A stretch of DNA of 64,000 bases, from assembly GCA_903879705.1 (NCBI GenBank), contig CAIRMO010000094.1, forward strand, positions 1-64,000, given 5' to 3'. The notes under the pieces are model-generated. The model saw nothing but the letters and a program-made list of their open reading frames with translations. It ran no database searches and had not been told where the DNA came from. Of this stretch, positions 9,210-17,854 are shown in pieces; position 1 is the first letter of the stretch, and every line of letters starts with the position of its first letter. The stretch comes from an uncultured Candidatus Competibacteraceae bacterium (GTDB lineage Bacteria > Pseudomonadota > Gammaproteobacteria > Competibacterales > Competibacteraceae). A program made the translations under genes and the position numbers.

Positions 9210-9285
9210 GCTCCCTTCGTCTAGTGGTCTAGGACACCGCCCTCTCACGGCGGGAACAGGGGTTCGAAACCCCTAGGGAGCGCCA
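9210..9285 (+). tRNA. tRNA-Glu (anticodon CTC)
   Basis: The 76-base cloverleaf has acceptor arm GCTCCCT (9210-9216) pairing with AGGGAGC (9275-9281), then G and an encoded CCA. The anticodon stem CCGCC/GGCGG encloses loop CTCTCAC, giving anticodon CTC. The T-loop reads TTCGAAA. Its 3' half is the integration site of the element to the right. Confidence 0.96.
9242..9285 (+). repeat. att site inside intact tRNA-Glu (left end)
   Basis: This 44-bp sequence, from the anticodon loop through the encoded CCA, recurs at 17811-17854 with one mismatch (G at 9266 versus A at the matching position in the T-loop). It is the core direct repeat produced by site-specific integration. The left copy belongs to the intact tRNA. 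Confidence 0.92.
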
Positions 9286-9320
9286 ATCAAATCAGGCGGT
9301 TATGGTTTGAGCTGCGGATT

Positions 9321-9364
9321 TTGCCCAATATTTGCCCAATATACGGGGATAGATACGGGTAGAC
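9321..9364. promoter_or_regulatory. Candidate integrase arm-type sites, left end
   Basis: Two copies of TTGCCCAATA (9321-9330 and 9332-9341) lie 11 bp apart, one helical turn. The second continues into ATACGGGGA, a perfect match to the right end at 17706-17723. A GTAGAC box follows at 9359-9364. The same arrangement at both ends suggests arm sites for the integrase or its directionality factor. Confidence 0.55.
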
Positions 9365-9373
9365 AGCATCAAT

Positions 9374-9476
9374 CCATGATCCGCTGCAACATGGTCTGCA
9401 ACACGCGACAAAACAACTAGATCAAACTGATCCAGTTGTGCTGCAACCCATGATCCGCTGCAACGTGGTCTGCAAC
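9374..9476. repeat. 29-bp direct repeat pair beside left att
   Basis: The 29-bp sequence beginning CCATGATCCGCTGCAAC occurs at 9374-9402 and 9448-9476 with a single mismatch, spaced 74 bp apart. Between and after them lie two 13-bp palindromes, GATCAAACTGATC (9420-9432) and GATCATGTTGATC (9488-9500). The non-coding stretch 9286-9526 thus looks like a protein-binding region at the element end. Confidence 0.75.
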
Positions 9477-9526
9477 TGTTATCGGTGGATCATGTTGATC
9501 TACCCTTGTTCCGGGCTGCAACCCTG

Positions 9527-9892
9527 CTATTGAGCGCACATCCCGCGAATAGTTGAAGCGCCCAGCGGAAAGTTGTCCATTCCACAGAGTTTGCGTTCCA
9601 CATACAGCCGCTTGCCAATGGCGGCGTAACTTCCGCCAGTTGATCGCCATTGGCGAACCAGCACTTTAATCGATTTCCGATCCGGTTCTGATAGGTAAGC
9701 GTAAGGCACTAGCGGTGTTCTAGTCTGCGTACTAGCGGCGCGACTAGCGGGCGGGCTGTTTTCCATAGCGGCCAGTGCTTTCCCGATCACGGCTGCATAG
9801 GGAGCGGCGAATTCAGCCGACAGCCGCTTGAGAGTGTCGAAAGCGACTTTATCAAGCTGAAAAGAAACTTGGTGAGTGTCGGGTATGGTCAT
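9527..9892 (-). CDS. Unknown small protein, possible DNA-binding
   Basis: The chosen ATG at 9892 gives about 121 residues. A TTG further upstream would add 14 weakly supported residues. The N-terminal part (HQVSFQLDKVAFDTLKRLSAEF) looks like a short strand followed by helices, as in ribbon-helix-helix proteins. The C-terminal part (IKVLVRQWRSTGGSYAAIGKRLY) resembles a helix-turn-helix. I do not recognise a family. It is the last gene of the element on the minus strand, next to the left att repeats, and could bind them. Confidence 0.55.
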   Translation of the reverse strand: MTIPDTHQVSFQLDKVAFDTLKRLSAEFAAPYAAVIGKALAAMENSPPASRAASTQTRTPLVPYAYLSEPDRKSIKVLVRQWRSTGGSYAAIGKRLYVERKLCGMDNFPLGASTIRGMCAQ

Positions 9893-10124
9893 GAACGGTA
9901 AATTGCCAATTATTAGCAGTATGGGCGGGTTCAAAATGGGGCCGCGTCAGCCGGCTTTCAGGCGGCAGGGGCGGCGGATCACCAGTGCAGAAGTAGGTAC
10001 TTCCACAGTTGGCCTACGCTAACCATCTTTCAAATGTCGACTTTCTAGCAAGCGGGCCTATGGTTTGCGCTGTACTCGGCTCGTCGGCTTTGAAACACCC
10101 CTGCTGGGGTTCTTTATGGAGCGG

Positions 10125-10679
10125 TCAAGCCACTCCAAACTCCTTCTTTCGTTCCTTGATTTCGTTTATTTCCAAACCGAGTTTATCCATTTGGTTTTGA
10201 AGCTCAGCCATTCTTGACAATCGCTGATCGTTGTTCAAAGAATTAATCGGCCAATCAATTTTCTCTAGTATATGGGGGATGCTGGATCGCATTGCTTCGG
10301 TCAAAAAAGCATCTAATCCCATTTGCAACCGATTTTGAGGATCAAAGGCGATCATTGCCCCGCCCCTAACGCTCTCAAGATTAGCTAAGTTCTGCCGACT
10401 CGCTTTATATCTAGCAAAATTTTCCCTCATTTTTTTTAAGGCGGTTTGCTCAATAAAGTCGAGGTACTGGTTAAGGAAAGTCGCGCCCTCATCACGTCCA
10501 GGGGGCAATTCGTTCAATTCACGCCATTCAGTAGCAAGTGCATTATGCTCGGCATTTTTTTCATCGAGCAGATTGTTGATCTTGCTGGAAAGTTCTCGGA
10601 TTTTTGGCGTTGCGGCTTCTATTTCGGAAAAGACGCCATTGGCAAAATCACTGACCGTATTGATAACCTTTGTAAACAT
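10125..10679 (-). CDS. Unknown coiled-coil protein of the satellite
   Basis: The 184-residue protein starts at an ATG preceded by GGAGCGATCCC, a good ribosome site. It is rich in charged residues and in helix-forming heptads: residues 25-60 (IRELSSKINNLLDEKNAEHN) and the C-terminus (MAELQNQMDKLGLEINEIKER) look like coiled coils. There is no signal peptide or membrane segment. I do not recognise a family. Its position downstream of the small terminase gene matches where satellites keep genes that interfere with helper-phage packaging, but that role is only a hypothesis. Its DNA is more AT-rich than the host genes. Confidence 0.7.
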   Translation of the reverse strand: MFTKVINTVSDFANGVFSEIEAATPKIRELSSKINNLLDEKNAEHNALATEWRELNELPPGRDEGATFLNQYLDFIEQTALKKMRENFARYKASRQNLANLESVRGGAMIAFDPQNRLQMGLDAFLTEAMRSSIPHILEKIDWPINSLNNDQRLSRMAELQNQMDKLGLEINEIKERKKEFGVA

Positions 10680-10776
10680 GGGATCGCTCCTTAGATTGAA
10701 GTTGCAGCAGTTAGGGAAAGGTTAACAAAGCTTTTTTGCTTGTGGGGTAGGTTTGATTTTAGATTGTCGGCGATGT

Positions 10777-10980
10777 TCATACGACGCGCCCTCCATTTTT
10801 AATGAATGCGCAACGCTGTTTCGGGGTCATGTTGTCAAAACCGGCGCGGGTCATGGTCTGTCCGGCGCTCACGGTTTTTTCTGACTGGCTGCCTATAATT
10901 TTGTAGCCGTGCTGGCTGTAAAAATCCTGTTCGGACTGGCTTGAGCTATCAAAGCATTGTTTTGAGACTGCGAGGTTCAT
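10777..10980 (-). CDS. Unknown small protein (67 residues)
   Basis: The ATG at 10980 follows GGAG with a 6-base spacer, which favours it over an in-frame TTG four codons upstream. The protein is polar, with a Ser/Gln-rich first half (SKQCFDSSSQSEQDFY) and a C-terminal MTPKQRCAFIKNGGRVV. No family is recognised. Its 5' end overlaps the 3' end of the next upstream gene by 32 bases, which suggests translational coupling. Confidence 0.55.
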   Translation of the reverse strand: MNLAVSKQCFDSSSQSEQDFYSQHGYKIIGSQSEKTVSAGQTMTRAGFDNMTPKQRCAFIKNGGRVV

Positions 10981-11146
10981 TTGTTTCTCCAAGCTGTGGT
11001 TTTGGTCTCGATTCGTTTTCCAGAATCAAACGCTCGATTTGCCCGATCATTAGCGCACGCAGGGGTTGTCCGCTTTGGGCGGAAAGCATTTTAAGCAGGC
11101 GGCGTTGTTCGGGGGTGACTTGAAAAGTCAGGGTAACGAGATTCAT
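10949..11146 (-). CDS. Unknown small protein, possible ribbon-helix-helix
   Basis: This 65-residue product (MNLVTLTFQVTPEQRRLLKML, then QPLRALMIGQIERLIL) begins with a strand-like stretch followed by two helices, compatible with a short RHH-like regulator. The ribosome site is weak. It overlaps the following gene by 32 bases. Confidence rests on sensible composition and the compact gene arrangement rather than on a family match. Confidence 0.5.
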   Translation of the reverse strand: MNLVTLTFQVTPEQRRLLKMLSAQSGQPLRALMIGQIERLILENESRPKPQLGETNEPRSLKTML

Positions 11147-11167
11147 TGCATGAGTTTACCATAAAAT

Positions 11168-11350
11168 TCAAATACAGCAATACTTAAAATCGGTGGCGAG
11201 GCGGTCGGCTGTGGATTCGCGGGTATCATTTTGATCCTCGCGTTTTACCGCGTTTTCATTTCCCGGCCTTGCGTATGCGTCCTGCTTGGCATACAGGGCC
11301 AGGACGGAATCTAGTCGAAACAATAATCCACAGGTGGGAGCGGCATTCAC
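11168..11350 (-). CDS. Possible small protein coupled to terS
   Basis: A GTG at 11350 overlaps the stop of the small terminase gene in a GTGA arrangement, which permits reinitiation. The 60-residue product is hydrophilic in its second half (KREDQNDTRESTADR) and has no recognised family. Part of it is encoded by a near-copy of the GATCANNNTGATC palindrome found elsewhere in the element. It may be non-coding spacer instead. Confidence 0.35.
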   Translation of the reverse strand: MNAAPTCGLLFRLDSVLALYAKQDAYARPGNENAVKREDQNDTRESTADRLATDFKYCCI

Positions 11351-11910
11351 ACGGTCGCCTTGGCACTATCCGCCAGCCGGCCGGGGAGTTGGGCGGCGGT
11401 GGTCGCCATGTCCAGCATCGCCTGATCCAACTCCGTCAGCAGCAGGGTGTGGATGGCGTGTTCGTCGCTTTCGGCAGCGAGGCGCGGGGCGATCTTGTCC
11501 GGTATCCGTTCCAGGGCGGCGCGGAATTGCGCGGCCAAGGTGGTATAGGCGAGATGCACATCGGCGAGTTCGACCAGTTCACCGGACCGTTGCCGCTCGC
11601 GCATTTCGGCGATGTTGGCTTCGTGGTGTTCGCGCTTGGCGCGGCTCAGTTGCAGGTCGTAGCCGGTCTGGGTGATCGCGCAGTCCGGGAGCGGTTGCCG
11701 GGCGGGATCGGCTGGGGTCAGGGCGGGTAGAGGCTGGCATTTCGGGATACGAGGGCGGGTATTTTTCTCCCATTGGAAATTCGCAATCTCTGGATCAATT
11801 TTGCCGTCGATCAGGCTGATCCGATTGTCCCGGATCGCCTTGAGTACGGCGGTGTGGTGGCAGTTACGGCGGCGAGCGTATTCAGTGATGCTGATCAGAT
11901 TGATGGCCAT
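11347..11910 (-). CDS. terS: Nu1-like terminase small subunit
   Basis: This 187-residue protein begins with a winged helix-turn-helix region (SITEYARRRNCHHTAVLKAIRDNRI) like phage DNA-packaging protein Nu1. The middle helix (DLQLSRAKREHHEANIAEMRERQ, typical of the family) is followed by VELADVHLAYTTLAAQFRAALERIPDKIAPRLA, also characteristic. Small terminase subunits recognise the pac or cos site and load DNA onto the packaging motor. No large subunit accompanies it. In a satellite, a solitary TerS can redirect a helper phage's packaging machinery to satellite DNA. Its identity is fairly firm; its role in piracy is inference. Confidence 0.8.
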   Translation of the reverse strand: MAINLISITEYARRRNCHHTAVLKAIRDNRISLIDGKIDPEIANFQWEKNTRPRIPKCQPLPALTPADPARQPLPDCAITQTGYDLQLSRAKREHHEANIAEMRERQRSGELVELADVHLAYTTLAAQFRAALERIPDKIAPRLAAESDEHAIHTLLLTELDQAMLDMATTAAQLPGRLADSAKATV

Positions 11911-12057
11911 AATGTGACTAAATCAGCCTATATCAAGGGGTTAGTGACCAATATGTGACTCAATGGGTGGCCTATGCCTAGACTACTTTTGCCGTCTCAA
12001 TTACCCGTAATGTCCCGAATACGCCAGGCACCTCCACACTTGGCGGGCTGGCTGAGT

Positions 12058-12085
12058 CTATGGTGCTATGGTGCTATGGTGCTAT
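12058..12085. repeat. Tandem GGTGCTAT x3
   Basis: Three perfect 8-bp copies of GGTGCTAT (12062-12085) follow CTAT. They lie in the non-coding region between the terS start and the origin candidate. No other signal was seen in 11911-12180 apart from an AT-rich tract near 12163-12181. Confidence 0.7.
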
Positions 12086-12180
12086 GGGCTTTTCGATTAT
12101 TTTTCATTTAGCCTCTATAGAGGTTTTCTCCCGTTGCCGCCGTTGCCGTTATGCAACAGCATGGTTTTTATATATTTTTT

Positions 12181-12352
12181 ACGTTTCGGGAGCGTCCCAA
12201 AACTGTCCACAGGAACTTTCTCCCGTAGACTTAACCCATCTAAATAATGCCTACAGGAACTTTTCTCCCGTAGACATTCCCGTAGACATTCCCGTAGACA
12301 TTATTTAGTTTTATAAAACAATTAGTTAATAGCTGCGTCTACACGTCTACAG
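12181..12352. other. Candidate replication origin with GTAGAC iterons
   Basis: Three perfect 12-bp tandem copies of CCCGTAGACATT fill 12267-12302, and a related copy lies at 12222-12233. Both blocks are preceded by ACAGGAACTTT(T)CTC. Two inverted GTCTAC boxes lie at 12337-12342 and 12345-12350. AT-rich tracts flank the block on both sides (12163-12181 and 12301-12332). It sits directly downstream of the primase/helicase gene. Iterons plus AT-rich DNA beside a replication gene are typical of satellite and plasmid origins; function is inference. Confidence 0.6.
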
Positions 12353-12353
12353 G

Positions 12354-14615
12354 TTAAACTTGCGTACAGGTAGAAGTTTCCTTTACCCATACCCTGATCT
12401 TCTTTCTCCAATCCATTTCAGCACGGGTCACTTTCTGCACATAGCCCTGCAATCGCATAATCCCGCTGAGCCGTTTCTGTGCGGGATTGCTCTGTTGATC
12501 GATCCTCAAGCCAATCCCCGTGAGAATACTTCCGGTAGTCAGGGGTGGCGGGGAACCGATGCTTGAGCCGGTTAAGCGGTCAACAGCGGCCATTACCGCG
12601 TCGGTCCATGCGTCCGCTTCCAAGTGAGCGGAGCGGGCTTCCTCGGCCTGGTTAAGCGCATCGGCCTGTGAGACGTACCACGGTTTTTTGTCGATAACTT
12701 GAGCCGCTGCTTCTCCCAGCAGTTGAGCGACAACCTGAGTCAGTGCCTCGGTATCAATCGGGGCGCAAAGGGTGATCGGCCAAAAGCGGCGATTGCCGGT
12801 TGGATCACGCAAGAATTGCGGATCGTTGGTCGTGCCAACAAAGCTCACGGTACGGGGGAAATCGCTGGCGTATCGGCCAAACTTCTCACGGAAATGATCG
12901 CTACGGGTGGCCACAAAGGACTTGATAGCCTCAAGGCTGGCGGTCTTGATAGCGGCCAATTCCGCCAGTTCGGCAATGACAATCCCCCGAACATTGATCT
13001 TGGCTTCCGGGTTGCTCACGTCGCCAATCGCATCGGTAAAGGCTTCCGGTTGCACTGCATCAGCGATGATTTGAGCGGCTGAGGATTTACGCCAGCCTTG
13101 TGGCCCAAACCAAACTAAAACATCATCGCGCTTGCAGCCGGGGTACAGGACGCGGGCCGCTACGCCTCGTAGCCACTTCTCGCCAATTTCCTGTAGGTAA
13201 TGGGTATTGTCTGCGGTATGAGTCGCGTTCAGGTAGTCAACCAGCCACGTTTTCAGGCGTGAGAGACCATCCCATTTGGCTGCCAAATAACGCAGGCGGT
13301 CCTGAGCCGGATTGAAGGCGTTGCGGTGGGCAACCGCCATGACCGCCAAATCTACGGTTTCTCGGCCAAATGGCACTTGGTGGGTTTGATTTATCCAAAT
13401 CATCGTCTCAGCCGTATCAGCATCTTGCCAAGCACCAGCGGGCGACGCATAAGGCGTTGCCGTCCTTTTTTCGATTTGCTGGCGAAACTCGTTGTAGCCG
13501 ATAACGCCTTCCCATGCGTTCTGTGAGAGGAATCGAACGGCATTGAGCAGCGTCCGATCTAATCCTTTCTTGGGGGTGGTTTCCTCTGTACTTGCGCCGA
13601 TAGAGGGGCCGGGGGTGTTTTTGGCTTTGGTTGCGGGTTCTCCGTAGCCTTGCATCCCCAATGCTTTAGTGGCCGCTTTGAAGTCACCGCCATGCTCCAG
13701 GGCGGCGTATGCAGCAAACTTGGAGATCGGCTTTTGCGTAGCAAAGGGCGTGGAACTGCTCCAGACGTACAGATAGCCCTTGCCCTGCCAGTTGGTCGCT
13801 GCGCTAACGCCTTCCGACTTGCCGGGGCGTCGCCAGTAAGTCGCCCCTTGGCGCTCAAACAGCCGGATCCATCCTTGCGGAATCAGCAGATCGTCCCAAC
13901 TGGCGCGGGCGTTGTAGGCGTCGCCAGGGCGCTCGTGGGTTTTCGCAGAGAGATCATTTTGATCCCTCTGATTCTGCGAGCAAGGATCATTTTGATCTTT
14001 GCTTGCGCCCGGCACATGGAAGGTCCGCGCCAAGGTGAACAGATTGGCGCGTTCATCGACGGTCAAGGTGGGGATCGTGCTGAATCCGCCATTGAGTAGG
14101 CAGTAAGGTTTGCCGGTGGGGTGAACCTTGCCATGACTGGGGGCGGTAATGATGAAACCGCCTTCGCCGCGAGTTTCGATCAGCGTCTTGATTCTGGGCT
14201 TGCCGGCTTCGTCTACTCCGTCAGGGCGGGTTGCCAACTTGGCATTTCCGCCAATTTCGGGGCAACGATACAGATAATGAAAACCGCCACCGGGCGAGGA
14301 TTCGATATAGCCCGTTTCCAGTTTGCGGATAACCGCGCCCAAACCAGCATCGTCGGCAATATCCTTGAAATGCTGGTAAGCGTCAGCATCGTCAAATTCA
14401 AACGCCTCGAGGTTGCCGGATACCGCGCCGGAAATTACGCCAATGCCAGTCAGCCCGTTGGAATACCATTTTTTCAGTTGGTCGGGATCGGGGCGTTGCT
14501 GTTGGTAAGGTTTCCAGGGTTTCGGGAGCGGTGCTTTGCTTCCGTCATGGCGAGGCGGAACAATTGACAATCCGGCGGCGTGGCCGGCCAGTGCGGTTTC
14601 GAGCAGGGAATTCAT
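12354..14615 (-). CDS. Primase-polymerase / VapE-like helicase replication protein
   Basis: The ATG at 14615, preceded by GGAG 10 bases upstream, gives 753 residues. Upstream codons in the same frame fall in the control RNA region and are probably untranslated. The N-terminal part resembles bifunctional primase-polymerase domains (FEFDDADAYQHF with acidic residues, then SSPGGGFHYLYR and LIETRGEGGFIITAPS). The C-terminal part is a VapE-type ATPase: LVWFGPQGWRKSS (Walker A-like), VIAELAEL (Walker B-like) and SFVGTTNDPQFLRDPTGNRRFWPI. A DQND-rich linker separates the two. Such proteins drive autonomous satellite replication, as P4 alpha does, probably from the adjacent iterons. Confidence 0.88.
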   Translation of the reverse strand: MNSLLETALAGHAAGLSIVPPRHDGSKAPLPKPWKPYQQQRPDPDQLKKWYSNGLTGIGVISGAVSGNLEAFEFDDADAYQHFKDIADDAGLGAVIRKLETGYIESSPGGGFHYLYRCPEIGGNAKLATRPDGVDEAGKPRIKTLIETRGEGGFIITAPSHGKVHPTGKPYCLLNGGFSTIPTLTVDERANLFTLARTFHVPGASKDQNDPCSQNQRDQNDLSAKTHERPGDAYNARASWDDLLIPQGWIRLFERQGATYWRRPGKSEGVSAATNWQGKGYLYVWSSSTPFATQKPISKFAAYAALEHGGDFKAATKALGMQGYGEPATKAKNTPGPSIGASTEETTPKKGLDRTLLNAVRFLSQNAWEGVIGYNEFRQQIEKRTATPYASPAGAWQDADTAETMIWINQTHQVPFGRETVDLAVMAVAHRNAFNPAQDRLRYLAAKWDGLSRLKTWLVDYLNATHTADNTHYLQEIGEKWLRGVAARVLYPGCKRDDVLVWFGPQGWRKSSAAQIIADAVQPEAFTDAIGDVSNPEAKINVRGIVIAELAELAAIKTASLEAIKSFVATRSDHFREKFGRYASDFPRTVSFVGTTNDPQFLRDPTGNRRFWPITLCAPIDTEALTQVVAQLLGEAAAQVIDKKPWYVSQADALNQAEEARSAHLEADAWTDAVMAAVDRLTGSSIGSPPPLTTGSILTGIGLRIDQQSNPAQKRLSGIMRLQGYVQKVTRAEMDWRKKIRVWVKETSTCTQV
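13952..13997. repeat. Pair of GATCATTTTGATC palindromes in the primase gene
   Basis: Two identical 13-bp palindromes lie at 13952-13964 and 13985-13997, 33 bp apart (three helical turns). They encode the repeated Asp-Gln-Asn-Asp in the linker between the two domains. Related palindromes occur at 9420-9432 and 9488-9500, with a near-copy at 11224-11236. Confidence 0.7.
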
Positions 14616-14642
14616 GATCTTAAATCTCCAAAAAAAGGTTGA

Positions 14643-14735
14643 TTGGAGACTGACATCCGCGCCGCATTCCGGTAAAATTACGCTCGCGAGGGCGTAATTT
14701 TTATGTGGTTTTACAGGGCGCGGGCCAGTCTCCAA
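14643..14735 (-). promoter_or_regulatory. Nested inverted repeats upstream of the primase gene
   Basis: On the minus-strand transcript, GGAGACTGG (from 14733) pairs with CAGTCTCC (from 14652). An inner hairpin lies within this, formed by AAAATTACGC (14674-14683) and GCGTAATTTT (14692-14701). The inner stem followed by a T run could act as a terminator. The outer arm TTGGAGACTGG (14735-14725) is also complementary to an RNA segment encoded at 15161-15171. The layout recalls the seqA/seqC control region before the P4 replication gene. Confidence 0.55.
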
Positions 14736-14753
14736 GGTAACTTGGGGCTGGCT

Positions 14754-15038
14754 TTAGTCGTTTATGGGGGTGGTGAAACTTGCTTTTCCCGTCTCGCCAA
14801 TCCGATCTGCCAATACATCAATCGTGTTGGCAATGATCGCCAGTTGATTGAACATCCCCAACCGCGCCGAATCGCTGTTCAGGGTTTCGCATTGATCGAC
14901 GGGGGCAACAAACAGGTCAGCCAACAGCCACAGGGTGGCGCTAATTGCATTCAGGGCATCGCCGATACAGCAGGCTGGCAGCGGTTGGTCGGGGTCATGG
15001 TCAAGGTAGGAATGGCGTAGGGAAACGGGCGAAGGCAT
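14754..15038 (-). CDS. Unknown 94-residue satellite protein
   Basis: The ATG at 15038 follows GGAG with a 9-base spacer. The frame stays open further upstream, but there it passes through the structured RNA region and is probably not translated. The protein has a predicted helical middle (IGDALNAISATLWLLADLFV) and a second helix (MFNQLAIIANTIDVLADRI). No family is recognised. It lies between the two complementary RNA segments, in front of the primase gene, so it may be an early or immunity-operon gene. Confidence 0.55.
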   Translation of the reverse strand: MPSPVSLRHSYLDHDPDQPLPACCIGDALNAISATLWLLADLFVAPVDQCETLNSDSARLGMFNQLAIIANTIDVLADRIGETGKASFTTPIND

Positions 15039-15121
15039 ACCAGCAATCTCCAACAGGTTCAGCGGGAACCGGCGTGGTGCCGGGGAACGGGCGGGGCTGG
15101 AAAACTGCCTGTAAGTGCAGC

Positions 15122-15193
15122 GCACAGCATTGCTACTGTGCATCCCCACCAATCCCCCGATTGGAGACTGGCGACCAGAATCCGGGCGGATTC
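15122..15193 (-). ncRNA. Candidate C4/P4-immunity-like antisense RNA
   Basis: The minus strand can fold into consecutive hairpins: GAATCC/GGATTC (15193-15178), CCAATC/GATTGG around GGGG (15164-15149), and GCACAG/CTGTGC (15141-15122). Beside the second hairpin it presents CCAGTCTCCAA, perfectly complementary over 11 bases to the primase leader at 14725-14735. P4 CI RNA and P1/P7 C4 RNA work by such pairing upstream of a replication or antirepressor gene. Exact ends are unknown and the assignment rests on this layout. Confidence 0.4.
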
Positions 15194-15301
15194 CAGGCGT
15201 AAAAAAAGCACGATGACGGTGTGCGGTGCCGCTTACAGTCGCGTTTTCCAGGCGCTTGTGAGCAGTATAGCCGGGCCGGGCGGCGTTGCAAGGGGCAGCG
15301 T

Positions 15302-15541
15302 TCATCCGGCGGCCTGTTGGGCCTGGGGGGCGGTTTCCGCTTCCCGTGCAGCGATGAATTCATGCAACGCCTTGACGGCGATATAGCGACGTACCCCCAG
15401 CGTGTAGGAGCGCAGCCGACCGTTATTGATCTCGCTGTACAGCGTGGCGCGGCAAACGGACAAGGCGCGGCAAGCGTCGGCAACGCTCAAGGCTTCTTGC
15501 TGGACCGGCTTGACGGCGGGAAAGGTGATGATTGTGTTCAT
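15302..15541 (-). CDS. AlpA-family / excisionase-type DNA-binding regulator
   Basis: This 79-residue protein has a MerR-like helix-turn-helix: LSVADACRALSVCRATLYSEINNG, followed by the wing RLRSYTLGVRRYIAVKALHEFIAARE. This is the HTH_17/AlpA pattern. In satellites such as P4 (Vis) and Gram-negative PICIs, AlpA-type proteins act as excision factors or as the switch that starts the replication genes. It lies between the unknown gene at 15650 and the primase operon, which fits a master regulator. A 23-bp palindrome sits about 80 bases upstream. Confidence 0.82.
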   Translation of the reverse strand: MNTIITFPAVKPVQQEALSVADACRALSVCRATLYSEINNGRLRSYTLGVRRYIAVKALHEFIAAREAETAPQAQQAAG

Positions 15542-15618
15542 GCGTTCGCCCTAGTGATTGAATTGACCGGGGCAAACCTTACAAGCAATTTTCCTTACTA
15601 TTCAACCCGCAAAGGGTA

Positions 15619-15641
15619 GGTAGGTTGACCTACAACCTACC
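15619..15641. promoter_or_regulatory. Palindrome upstream of the alpA-like gene
   Basis: GGTAGGTTG (15619-15627) and CAACCTACC (15633-15641) form a perfect 9-bp inverted repeat with a 5-base centre. It lies between the stop of the upstream gene and the AlpA-like start. A regulator-binding site is more likely than a terminator because no T run follows on either strand. The binding protein is unknown. Confidence 0.45.
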
Positions 15642-15649
15642 GCATGTTC

Positions 15650-16222
15650 TTATTTGTTACGGGTATTTCCACCTCTGCGGCGGTATTCGGGGCGGATAAC
15701 CTGATCAATGTGGTCTGCCATTGTGGGCGTCATCTCGCGGTGTTCTATCAGCCATTGAATGATGTCCTTTTTCTTGGGCGGGTGGCTTGGATCGTGATTC
15801 AGCCAAAACTTAATAATTGCTGCTTGCAATGCGTCAAGGGCGGGCGTGTGGTAGTCAGGCGGATCATCGGTAGTGACGGATTTATCGGGCGGCGAATCAG
15901 GAAACAGCAACGGCGGGCGAATGCATCTGAGCGCGTTTTCCAAGGTCAAATCAGCAGCCGGTTGTGGAATAAACAAAAAGCGGGGCTTAAATACGCTATG
16001 AGTTTCCGCCCAATCGCGAAGGGCGCTCCGTGAATAGCGCGACGCCCGCGCCAATTGTCCTTTGTCCAACGCTTCTCGAATGTCCCACAAGATTCTATTC
16101 CCCATAGCAGGGAGCGTCTGGCCAGGCTTACCGGGCGGCTCCAACCCGCACCAAAGCCAGCCTATTTCACGCGGGTCAAAATCAGAAACAGTGTCCCAAT
16201 ACTCGAAATTTGCCGGGTCCAT
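15650..16222 (-). CDS. Unknown satellite protein, 190 residues
   Basis: The ATG at 16222 follows an AAGGTG stretch at a reasonable distance; an upstream in-frame start would add 25 arginine-rich residues. Segments seen are DFDPREIGWLWCGLEPPG near the N-terminus, a basic middle and a C-terminal part with KFWLNHDPSHPPKKKDIIQWL and an arginine-rich end. The lysine-rich helix followed by IQWLIEHREM looks like a nucleic-acid contact, but no family is recognised. It lies between the integrase and alpA genes. Confidence 0.65.
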   Translation of the reverse strand: MDPANFEYWDTVSDFDPREIGWLWCGLEPPGKPGQTLPAMGNRILWDIREALDKGQLARASRYSRSALRDWAETHSVFKPRFLFIPQPAADLTLENALRCIRPPLLFPDSPPDKSVTTDDPPDYHTPALDALQAAIIKFWLNHDPSHPPKKKDIIQWLIEHREMTPTMADHIDQVIRPEYRRRGGNTRNK

Positions 16223-16324
16223 TGAATCGCACCTTGCGCACCTTGGAAAAAGGTCGCCGCGCCAGGGCCGGGCAAGGTGCGAACCCGGCCTTTTCACGGG
16301 CCAGGCTAGGCGCGGCGGATTCAG

Positions 16325-17680
16325 TTATCGGACTTTCGCCACAGGGAGAGCCACCACGTTTGAGGGCGCATCCAATCCAAACCGGGGCGCACTGGCACGG
16401 ATCGCTTCAGCCACATAGGACGGGGCTAAATGCCCGTAGTGTTTTTCGATCATGCGGGTATCCCGATGGCCCAAATTCTGCGCCAGAACCAACAACGGCA
16501 TTCCCGCCATAACCGCCAAGCTGGCGTAGCTATGCCGCAAAACGTGAAAGCTGATCGGCGGATCAATCCGGGCATTCTGACAGGCTTGGCGAAGCGGGCG
16601 CTGATTGCGATTGTGAGTCCAAGAGGGCAAATTAGAACCACGGTTCTGATTTGAATCGCTGGGCAAATTGGCCCCGCGAGGCCAATTTGAAGCAGCGCCG
16701 GGGGATAACAGCAGAGCATCGGCGGGCCGACCTATCGCCAGTCGGTTAAACAGATCGATCCCTTCTTCCGTTAGAACCACATGCCGACCATGCCCACTCT
16801 TGGTTTGCCGGATATGCACGGTTCCCGATGTCGGATTGAAGTCAGCAGTTACCAGCCGCGCCAATTCCCCATGTCGGCAACCGGTCGCCAATGCAGCCTG
16901 TACCAGATCGCGCAAATCGCCGGGGCTGGCATTCATCAATCGCTGGCATTCGTGGACTGTCAGGTAGCGCAACCGGGCGGCGTCGGCCTGGGGGAACGGT
17001 TTGACCTTGCGCCAAGCGCTGTCATCCGTCGCCAGTCCTTCCCGCCAAGCCAGATTTAGCGCGGCTTTGAGTGTGGTCAGAATCCGGTTTACGGTCGCTT
17101 TCCGCTTGCGGGCCGCGTCGGGATCGTGGTCGGTTTCCCGATAGCGCTGGGCTTGTCCAGGGCGGGTTCGTACTCGAGGCGGTTGACTGGCGAGGGTCGT
17201 TAACCAGGCGCGGATTCGGGCCGGGGTCAAGCGGTTGATCGGGAGGGTTCCCAGCGCGGGAAGGATGAAAGCCTCGGCGCGGTTCCGGGCATCGGCGGCT
17301 GATTTTCGATGCTGTTCCATCCATAGCAGATAAGCCTGAAGTGCATCGGCAACCGTGTACTTCTCAAGGTCGGGAGTCAGTCCAGCCGCATTTTGAGCGA
17401 ACCGGGCGGCGCGCAGGCGGGCTTGGGCTTGCGCCTGGGTAAAACTCAGAATCCCGATCCCGTCCGGATCGGCGCCGTCATCAGCCGGGCCGATCATTTC
17501 TTCCTGATAGCGTCCACCGCCCGCATACCAGCGCACCAGCCACTTACCGCCCGTTTTACCCTTTCGATAGCCCAGATGTGTTCCCGGATCAATGGAACGC
17601 CAGTAGGGTTTGCCACAGGTAGTGAGCCGGGCGCGGGCGGCGCGGGTGTCGAGTCGAGTATCACGGACCGTTTTCGCCAT
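16325..17680 (-). CDS. int: Tyrosine-type site-specific integrase
   Basis: About 451 residues from the ATG at 17680; an upstream in-frame start at 17740 is less likely because it would read through the arm-type repeats. The N-terminal arm-binding part contains KGKTGGKWLVRWYAGG, and a core-binding SAM-like domain follows. The catalytic domain shows all the expected residues: ATGCRHGEL (Arg), the TKSGHGR strand region, HVLRHSYAS (His-x-x-Arg), LGHRDTRM (His) and the nucleophile Tyr in EKHYGHL. It catalyses integration into the 3' half of tRNA-Glu. Its 5' end faces the right att site only about 130 bp away. Confidence 0.95.
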   Translation of the reverse strand: MAKTVRDTRLDTRAARARLTTCGKPYWRSIDPGTHLGYRKGKTGGKWLVRWYAGGGRYQEEMIGPADDGADPDGIGILSFTQAQAQARLRAARFAQNAAGLTPDLEKYTVADALQAYLLWMEQHRKSAADARNRAEAFILPALGTLPINRLTPARIRAWLTTLASQPPRVRTRPGQAQRYRETDHDPDAARKRKATVNRILTTLKAALNLAWREGLATDDSAWRKVKPFPQADAARLRYLTVHECQRLMNASPGDLRDLVQAALATGCRHGELARLVTADFNPTSGTVHIRQTKSGHGRHVVLTEEGIDLFNRLAIGRPADALLLSPGAASNWPRGANLPSDSNQNRGSNLPSWTHNRNQRPLRQACQNARIDPPISFHVLRHSYASLAVMAGMPLLVLAQNLGHRDTRMIEKHYGHLAPSYVAEAIRASAPRFGLDAPSNVVALPVAKVR

Positions 17681-17694
17681 AGTCTCCCCAATTG

Positions 17695-17723
17695 ATGCCC
17701 AATAGTTGCCCAATATACGGGGA
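17695..17723. promoter_or_regulatory. Candidate integrase arm-type sites, right end
   Basis: ATGCCCAATA (17695-17704) and TTGCCCAATA (17706-17715) lie 11 bp apart. The second extends to ATACGGGGA, identical to the left end over 18 bases. Both pairs have the same orientation relative to the element. They overlap the leader of int, so the protein that binds them could also repress int. Confidence 0.55.
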
Positions 17724-17732
17724 GGAACGGCG

Positions 17733-17800
17733 GTAGACAACTATAGACAGTTTTTTAGGAATCAAGCAGTTGACTATACGGCTATAGACAGCTATAGACG
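17733..17800. repeat. TAGAC-box repeats beside right att
   Basis: GTAGAC (17733-17738) and a series of CTATAGACA/G motifs, including a 10-bp tandem GCTATAGACA-GCTATAGACG at 17781-17800, lead up to the att repeat. The same TAGAC core occurs in the origin iterons and at the left end. Confidence 0.6.
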
Positions 17801-17810
17801 GTTAGGGCAT

Positions 17811-17854
17811 CTCTCACGGCGGGAACAGGGGTTCAAAACCCCTAGGGAGCGCCA
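17811..17854 (+). repeat. att site, right end (tRNA-Glu 3' fragment)
   Basis: This 44-bp partial copy of tRNA-Glu matches 9242-9285 except for one base in the T-loop (TTCAAAA instead of TTCGAAA). No acceptor 5' strand or D-arm precedes it, so it is a fragment, not a second tRNA. Bases 17855-18083 to its right hold nothing I can assign with confidence. Confidence 0.92.

Follow-up and report, generated by a model that had tools for sequence, protein, structure and literature searches.

A probable immunity and replication-control leader built on a C4-type antisense RNA in a P4/PICI-like satellite of Competibacteraceae

We describe a control region that is probably the immunity and replication-control leader of a P4/PICI-like satellite, built on a C4-type antisense RNA. 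The region lies on a contig of an uncultured Candidatus Competibacteraceae bacterium (CAIRMO010000094.1), of which a stretch of 64,000 nucleotides, the window, was analysed. Judged from its sequence, the module is a divergent C4/P4-type RNA, and all the functional steps that we attach to it are predicted or borrowed from P4, P1 and IsrK.

The element and its genes

The region appears to be part of an integrated P4/PICI-like satellite of about 8.6 kb (Table 1). On the minus strand the order runs integrase, int-alpA RNA, a 190-codon open reading frame, AlpA, the control region, p94, the primase-helicase and terS, and the same order is found in P4, with ORF88, c4-a1b1, C4, small genes and the alpha primase. 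Ten open reading frames of the element were searched against Pfam and PHROG, and the integrase, AlpA, primase and terS were recognised. The small protein p94 gave no Pfam or PHROG match at E 0.1, and tblastn identified homologues at 45-60% identity in L014, L046 and L051. Protein-pattern scans of genome contigs and viral contigs returned no relatives of the primase.

Two further observations concern the element and its genome. Between the 190-codon frame and alpA, positions 15619-15641 hold a perfect 9-pair inverted repeat, GGTAGGTTG-ACCTA-CAACCTACC on the plus strand, which may be a terminator on the plus strand or a site for a protein. The window's own genome also carries a second stretch, L018 (contig C76, 3185-4222 and 9592-9942), in which the N-terminal half of a primase is 48% identical and a homologue of a 135-residue protein is present at 71%.

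Table 1. Features of the element and its control region, in window coordinates
Feature	Position	Strand	Details
Integrated element, ~8.6 kb	9242-17854		44-nt direct repeat at each end, the copies differing at one position
44-nt repeat copies	9242-9285 and 17811-17854		First copy is the 3' part of tRNA-Glu
Small terminase subunit (terS)	11347-11910	minus	phrog_57 7.4e-24
Primase-helicase, Prim-Pol and VapE-like domain	12354-14615	minus	PF09250 4.1e-15, PF05272 2.4e-55, phrog_1313 2.3e-78
Primase SD	14623-14631	minus	TTGGAGATT
B	14643-14653	minus	TCAGTCTCCAA; predicted partner A or primase SD
A	14725-14735	minus	TTGGAGACTGG; predicted partner Z or B
Z	14744-14752	minus	GCCAGCCCC; directly 3' of the p94 stop codon
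p94, 94-residue small protein	14754-15038	minus	Stop codon 14756-14754
p94 SD region	15044-15053	minus	TTGGAGATTG; predicted D partner
Divergent C4 antisense RNA	15075-15165	minus	RF01695 25.4 bits, sub-threshold
C4 outer stem	15158-15144 with 15096-15082	minus	a' loop 15115-15109; b' 15105-15097
D	15161-15171	minus	CCAGTCTCC / CCAGTCTCCAA; in the C4 5' flank
Hairpin	15178-15193	minus	GAATCC-gccc-GGATTC
Terminator-like hairpin	15201-15224	minus	GCAC/GTGC + T7
b1-a1 target	15232-15255	minus	0/20000 permutations
b1	15251-15243	minus	CTGGAAAAC; hairpin loop, stem 15255-15253 with 15243-15241
a1	15238-15232	minus	CTGTAAG
Promoter-like sequence	15264-15291	minus	TTGCAA-16-TATACT
AlpA-like HTH_17 protein	15302-15541	minus	PF12728 3.1e-10; phrog_66 excisionase/regulator 2.4e-05
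int-alpA RNA (RF02996)	16241-16316	minus	40.1 bits, cut-off 35.8
Tyrosine integrase	16325-17740	minus	PF00589 8.7e-19, phrog_1 4.1e-57

A divergent member of the C4 family

The original prediction had placed an antisense module resembling P4 CI/C4 before the primase gene, and pointed to the Rfam C4 model as a check. Under the permissive Rfam settings used for the window scan, RF01695 does match the window, at a score of 25.4 bits that falls short of the gathering cut-off of 45 bits. This sub-threshold match, the same fold and the same gene order as in P4 bear the placement out, as does the hypervariable yet matched a'b'/b1a1 pair described below. The companion family c4-a1b1 (RF03163) was not found in the window even at E 10. 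Four of the 12 relatives' loci scanned matched RF01695 at 43.9, 38.7, 37.9 and 35.8 bits (E 2.2e-05 to 0.0023), and the remaining eight gave no match at E 1. P4 itself scores 74.9 bits for C4 and 44.1 bits for c4-a1b1 (cut-off 46.7), together with isrK-like matches and a terminator with a T7 run.

A DNA search matched the region in 12 of 39 family genomes at E 0.001 or better. The 12-locus alignment consists of the window, ten loci from this search and G024, which was found through the primase search. G003, G021, G022c and G025b, with matches of about 45 bases and no C4 surroundings, were left out along with the partial G014 and with G033b, which is near-identical to G033; G032 gave a short match in the DNA search and was afterwards read as a full locus.

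Single-sequence folding returned the C4 shape, with its outer stem, first hairpin, a' hairpin and b' linker, in 11 of the 12 members. The exception is G035a, which prefers a hairpin of D with the C4 5' arm. Among the ten closer sequences 87.5% of the cells in the C4 helices are paired, a value that none of 500 shuffles reached. Two-sided changes fall at 8 of the 25 C4 pairs in this set (reached by 8/500 shuffles) and 19 further pair types occur in the helices (66/500), with no two-sided change in the outer stem. A model, R1, scores 93.9 bits on the window by construction. It matches 10 of the 39 family genomes; among 369 genomes of the class, strict filters left 2 that match, both from the window's family. 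It matched none of 19 viral contigs fetched by a looser pattern. R1 misses L011 and L051, which are home to the divergent members G024 and G032. Two related elements, L014 (G034, with a p94 homologue) and L058 (G010, with a Z-A-B leader), carry no C4-like RNA by R1, and in G020 (L090) neither the C4 model nor that of sRNA-Xcc1 gave a match at E 0.1.

The likeness to P4 CI/C4 (RF01695) and c4-a1b1 (RF03163) extends over the outer stem, the hairpin, the a' hairpin loop and the b' linker, and further to b1 in a hairpin loop, a1, the T-run terminator and the placement of the module, with an AlpA/Vis-type gene on one side and the primase operon on the other. One difference is that the window's RNAs lie under the Rfam cut-offs. 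As the window's C4 score is also below those of the four relatives that match RF01695, we considered whether the module is a decayed, functionless relic; with the hypervariable pairs intact, the searched genes in open frames and both att repeats present, we judge this highly improbable.

An own-specific contact between a'b' and b1-a1

The b1-a1 segment (15251-15232) is complementary to a'-b' (15115-15097). Across the 12 members the pairing of each a'b' with its own b1a1 has a mean energy of -24.3 kcal/mol, compared with -14.1 kcal/mol for swapped partners, and none of 20000 permutations was as good. The own pairing is the best in its row for 10 of the 12, and the gap between own and swapped partners is -10.2 for the real segments and -0.35 when a'b' is shuffled (mean of 40 shuffles). 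The own-specific antisense contact would thus be that of a'b' with b1-a1, segments that are hypervariable but matched. Covariation in relatives, proposed originally as a check on the pairing of D with the primase leader, was observed at b1a1/a'b'; D:A is not supported by conservation, its segments mostly occurring apart.

In all 12 members a1 is followed by AGCGG and then by a terminator-like hairpin with a T-run, the stem of which varies in sequence while its pairing is kept. The window's GCAC/GTGC hairpin is absent from a consensus terminator scan that required stems of at least five pairs. The b1 hairpin is present in the printed minimum free energy structure of nine members, the others being G035a, G017 and G036. 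The promoter-like CTTGC and TAT-CT are repeated in most rows of alignment A1 that extend that far.

All the predicted contacts could form within one transcript, and the region could accordingly be read as a cis-only translation switch that makes no trans antisense RNA and in which the C4 fold is inherited structure. We find this improbable: b1a1 is hypervariable and matched as it is in P4 and canonical C4, a terminator lies between b1a1 and C4, and RNAs of the C4 and IsrK types are reported to act in trans in the accessible text of PMC5320573 and PMC4825925.

The contact was compared with that of 29 canonical C4 loci plus P4, a set from which L118 was dropped for its short downstream sequence. 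There a'b' is own-specific both upstream and in the 160 nt downstream (0/10000 permutations each). In canonical C4 the a'b' segment matches the SD region of the next gene (b2-a2), whereas in the window's clade it is D that is complementary to the SD. No own-specific match of a'b' was seen in the clade to the next gene's SD (11724/20000 permutations) or, in the 12 clade loci, to the 160 nt downstream of C4 (14495/20000).

A second site for a'b' was observed in the alpA leader at 15578-15594 on the minus strand (GGAAAATTGCTTGTAAG), which forms 17 contiguous pairs with the window's a'b', two of them G-U. In an element-wide scan it was the strongest sense-strand site, at -27.4 kcal/mol against -25.8 kcal/mol for b1a1, and with a longer query it reached -32.6 kcal/mol. 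It is conceivable that a'b' also or mainly targets this leader (15594-15578), with C4 limiting AlpA, an idea that is compatible with the main explanation. The site is not shared over the 12 members, where own pairings average -24.8 and swapped ones -24.3 (4827/20000 permutations), and we regard such targeting as unlikely.

The D strand and a predicted switch at the p94 SD

D is complementary to three segments, namely the p94 SD, the C4 5' arm and A. The SD contains GGAGACT or GGAGATT in 8 of the 10 members with a canonical or near-canonical D; the SDs of G036 and G022b fit D more poorly. In G024 and G032 D differs, and the SD differs too. The covariation of D with the SD is weak, being equalled in 349 of 20000 permutations over the 12 members and in 3920 of 20000 over the ten with canonical D. 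Adding G020 gave 28/20000, with a D segment that was chosen by eye. A member's own D:SD pairing beats all 25 canonical-locus SD regions in 5 of the 12, and that of G022b is not distinguished, 10 of the 25 canonical SD regions being as good. Inspected by eye, G020 (L095) has a D-SD pair of its own, in which TTGCTCCTA faces TAGGAGCAA, and retains a site resembling b2-a2 at the SD; it is possibly an intermediate between the canonical arrangement and that of the window.

Two competing states are predicted when the stretch of leader between b1 and the start of the following gene is folded. In the first b1a1 pairs with a'b' and D with the C4 5' arm, and in the second the C4 stem forms and D pairs with the SD. 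When b1a1 is blocked the C4 stem is predicted in 12 of 12 members and D:SD in 11. When no segment is blocked, the prediction is b1a1:a'b' for G035a, G022a, G015, G022b, G032 and G024, the D:arm pairing being partial in G032 and absent in G024. For the window, G017, G036 and G033 it is the C4 stem with D:SD (OFF), as it is for the most part for G025a and G035b. For the window, then, the model gives OFF as the predicted state even without C4, and ON is not predicted. Between ON and OFF the openness of the SD falls from 0.81 to 0 in G015, from 0.44 to 0 in G022a and from 0.46 to 0.25 in G024; in ON the SD gains little in G035a and G032 and nothing in G022b.

A D strand as a general feature of C4 is not supported. 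In the canonical loci the C4 body is own-specific to the SD region (0/20000) and the C4 5' flank is not (12848/20000); here the SD region was crudely located with a simple pattern finder, used in the canonical and Pseudomonas tests alike, several of whose picks in the 30 canonical loci look wrong. The segment preceding C4 in Pseudomonas gave 3051/20000. Inspection by eye shows that some Pseudomonas/Stutzerimonas loci, such as L128 and L131, have ACCTCTG immediately 5' of C4. This segment is complementary to the SD core CAGAGGT, and a D-like strand may be wider than the window's clade. In P4 (L061) we observed by eye that ten bases of an arm of the first C4 hairpin (minus 2988-2979, GGCAGCCTCC) are complementary to 2879-2870 (GGAGGCTGCC), the SD region of the gene that follows C4, a match that comes on top of the a2-b2 site.

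In the C4 precursors of P1 and P7, RNase P cleaves where the outer stem begins on its 5' side, as the accessible part of PMC5320573 describes. Since D lies 5' of that cut, the mature C4 RNA would, by analogy, lack it.

A four-segment leader before the primase

Segments Z, A, B and the primase SD form a leader that was found in 4 of the 39 family genomes (the window, G010, G035 and G024). A fifth hit, in G031, spans 23 bases only, and a diverged copy is present in G032. The upstream reading frame ends at one common position in the window, G035a and G024 and 13 nt further on in G010 and G032. In all four close members the free fold pairs Z with A and B with the SD, and A:B forms once Z is blocked. 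The predicted probability of a free SD then rises from 0.02 to 0.24 in the window, from 0.00 to 0.36 in G010 and from 0.00 to 0.97 in G035a; in G024 A:B forms but the SD stays shut (0.01), so that the SD opens in three of the four. G032 does not show this fold pattern. Shuffles of the interior were never equally stable (0/200 for each close member), and the size of the switch was matched by 2, 1, 0 and 64 of 200 shuffles in the window, G010, G035a and G024, respectively. Two-sided changes occur at 2-3 of the predicted leader pairs among the four sequences. As a ribosome at the p94 stop codon would cover Z, we infer from these folds a translational coupling of p94 and primase through Z-A-B-SD. 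The T-run after B was considered as a terminator and set aside; the diverged G032 lacks it.

The original prediction concerned this leader. It proposed that D (CCAGTCTCCAA, minus 15171-15161) is complementary over 11 bases to A (TTGGAGACTGG, 14735-14725), which a direct reading confirms as exact, and that a second copy of D can pair locally with the same arm around an inner terminator-like stem. The copy is present at 14652-14643 (CAGTCTCCAA), with 10 of the 11 bases and a T before it, and folding supports its pairing with A. On the minus strand no T-run follows the inner stem, and in the terminator scan it was terminator-like on the plus strand only. The segment 14745-14605 folds at -49.1 kcal/mol, where its shuffles average -29.2 (z -5.7), and none of 200 shuffles was equally stable. 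The related sites at the primase SD and the p94 SD and the b1-a1/a'-b' complementarity were not part of that prediction.

The role given to D as the antisense segment, with leader A as its target, is not backed by conservation; the own-specific antisense contact is that of a'b' with b1-a1. Among the eight canonical-D members with enough downstream sequence, six have D without the A/B leader, and the leader occurs without canonical D in G010, G024 and, diverged, G032. The two are found together only in the window and G035a. D:A is thus probably not the conserved contact, and we rejected it as such, yet it is the stronger duplex where D and A coexist: -22.6 kcal/mol in the window and -21.5 kcal/mol in G035a, against -15.4 and -16.1 kcal/mol for D with the next gene's SD. 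In the element-wide scan no site paired better with D than A did, leaving aside the strand complementary to D itself.

A pairing of D with A, whether D belongs to a C4-like small RNA or to the transcript that also carries A, would leave B covering the primase SD, and the SD does remain closed in the model when A is blocked. This fits the exact complementarity and the energies in the two elements that hold both segments. The distribution of the leader speaks against it, as do the greater closeness of Z and B to A in cis and the position of D 5' of the RNase P cut described for C4 precursors (PMC5320573, accessible part). The greater strength of D:A over D:SD where both exist has raised our estimate from a very slim chance to a small one, and we still hold this reading to be doubtful; in the window and G035a elements D:A may be an added contact.

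Matching segments in sRNA-Xcc1

A scan of genome contigs for b1-a1 followed by a terminator returned at least 80 loci (L126-L205). Among the loci listed, 8 are from Competibacteraceae, 67 from Pseudomonas/Stutzerimonas and 5 from others treated as chance; no viral contig matched the b1a1 pattern. The eight Competibacteraceae loci, which are seven of the 12 members plus G033b, were left out along with the five chance loci. One Pseudomonas/Stutzerimonas locus failed the filters, and the remaining 66 reduced to 42 distinct loci. In these a'b' matches both b1a1 and the SD region (0/20000 permutations each), and the four that were scanned with Rfam all proved to be sRNA-Xcc1 (RF02221), at 68.5-74.3 bits.

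A class-wide search at E 1e-4 found RF02221 in 22 of 369 genomes, and 11 of these exceeded the cut-off. Sampling by the RF02221 model alone, we fetched 30 of 35 hits (L206-L235) and used 29. In the 140 nt upstream the own pairing averages -29.4 and the swapped pairing -24.4, and in the 80 nt downstream -22.8 and -18.7 (0/20000 in both cases). Longer stretches, for which L211 was dropped for its short upstream sequence and a composition control was run, gave 0 and 1 of 20000 permutations, and the 16 loci over the cut-off alone gave 0/20000 upstream and 0/20000 downstream. Targets were absent at -280 to -100 upstream and were located within 140 nt. These tests suggest that sRNA-Xcc1 members show C4-type matching, with an upstream target and a downstream target close to the SD.

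The window's clade shares with sRNA-Xcc1 the b1a1/a'b' logic and, as far as the Pseudomonas loci picked up by the AGCGG-containing pattern are concerned, the AGCGG after a1. The downstream target is retained in RF02221 members, unlike in the window's clade. The RF02221 cut-off of 53 bits was not reached by the relatives' loci, of which only L023 (29.8 bits), L031 (27.3) and L038 (27.3) gave scores, and the window is not listed. Rfam places RF01695 and RF03163 in clan CL00128, and RF02221 has no clan. C4 and sRNA-Xcc1 are listed as separate families in the accessible text of PMC12189769, and that of the original sRNA-Xcc1 report presents a novel sRNA with many predicted targets (PMC2996969). 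A link between C4 and sRNA-Xcc1 was not found in the literature searched, subscription papers being mostly beyond reach.

Discussion

The C4 fold, the covariation of a'b' with b1a1, the recurring D-SD complementarity and the conservation of Z-A-B-SD can be read in the aligned sequences, and around them we propose the following mechanism, in which transcription, processing, termination and repression are borrowed by analogy from P4, P1 and IsrK. A transcript would start near 15257, make b1-a1 and then reach the terminator, and RNA that reads through would carry C4. Freed in trans, C4 would pair through a' and b' with the b1-a1 of new transcripts, and with segments that are hypervariable but matched each element would address its own type.

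The two leader switches are both predicted by folding. Where the transcript's own b1-a1 holds a'b', the C4 5' arm would keep D and the next gene's SD would be less covered. Where b1-a1 is taken by C4 in trans, the transcript's own C4 domain would fold and D would be released onto that SD. Without a ribosome at the p94 stop, Z:A and B:SD would form and the primase would be off; a ribosome there would cover Z, allowing A:B to form and freeing the primase SD.

In P1, ant is controlled through coupling to the upstream icd gene. Compared with P1/P7 c4, the coupled gene here would be the primase, by way of the four-segment leader. The c4 RNA of P1 and P7 controls ant as an antisense RNA acting around the ribosome-binding site (PMC12197685, accessible text). 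IsrK (RF01394) of Gifsy-1 is also similar: it has a short terminated isoform, its read-through mRNA adopts two folds, and the following gene is translationally coupled. The accessible part of PMC4825925 describes the two folds and the action of the short isoform in trans, calls the P4 SeqA RNA a structural homologue of that isoform, and proposes coupling by ribosome elongation with the structure of the second ribosome-binding site unchanged. In contrast to IsrK, the window's leader is predicted to switch structure beside the stop codon.

It is tempting to view C4, sRNA-Xcc1 and the Competibacteraceae RNAs as one large class of hypervariable antisense immunity tags of satellites and prophages. 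In one branch of the class, SD recognition would have moved from b2-a2 to a D strand in cis, and a coupling switch for the replication gene, triggered at a stop codon, would have been added. We put this forward tentatively, with slightly under an even chance of being right. If it is true, sRNA-Xcc1, which has been discussed in print with regard to virulence, would be mainly an immunity RNA; our analysis suggests that this orphan, virulence-linked family is of the same antisense kind. The module would extend P4-style RNA immunity to satellites of the Competibacteraceae, in a form that lies below the Rfam cut-offs, and it suggests how the RNA strand that reads a ribosome-binding site can change. 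In these elements the proposed leader would tie synthesis of the primase to translation of the preceding gene.
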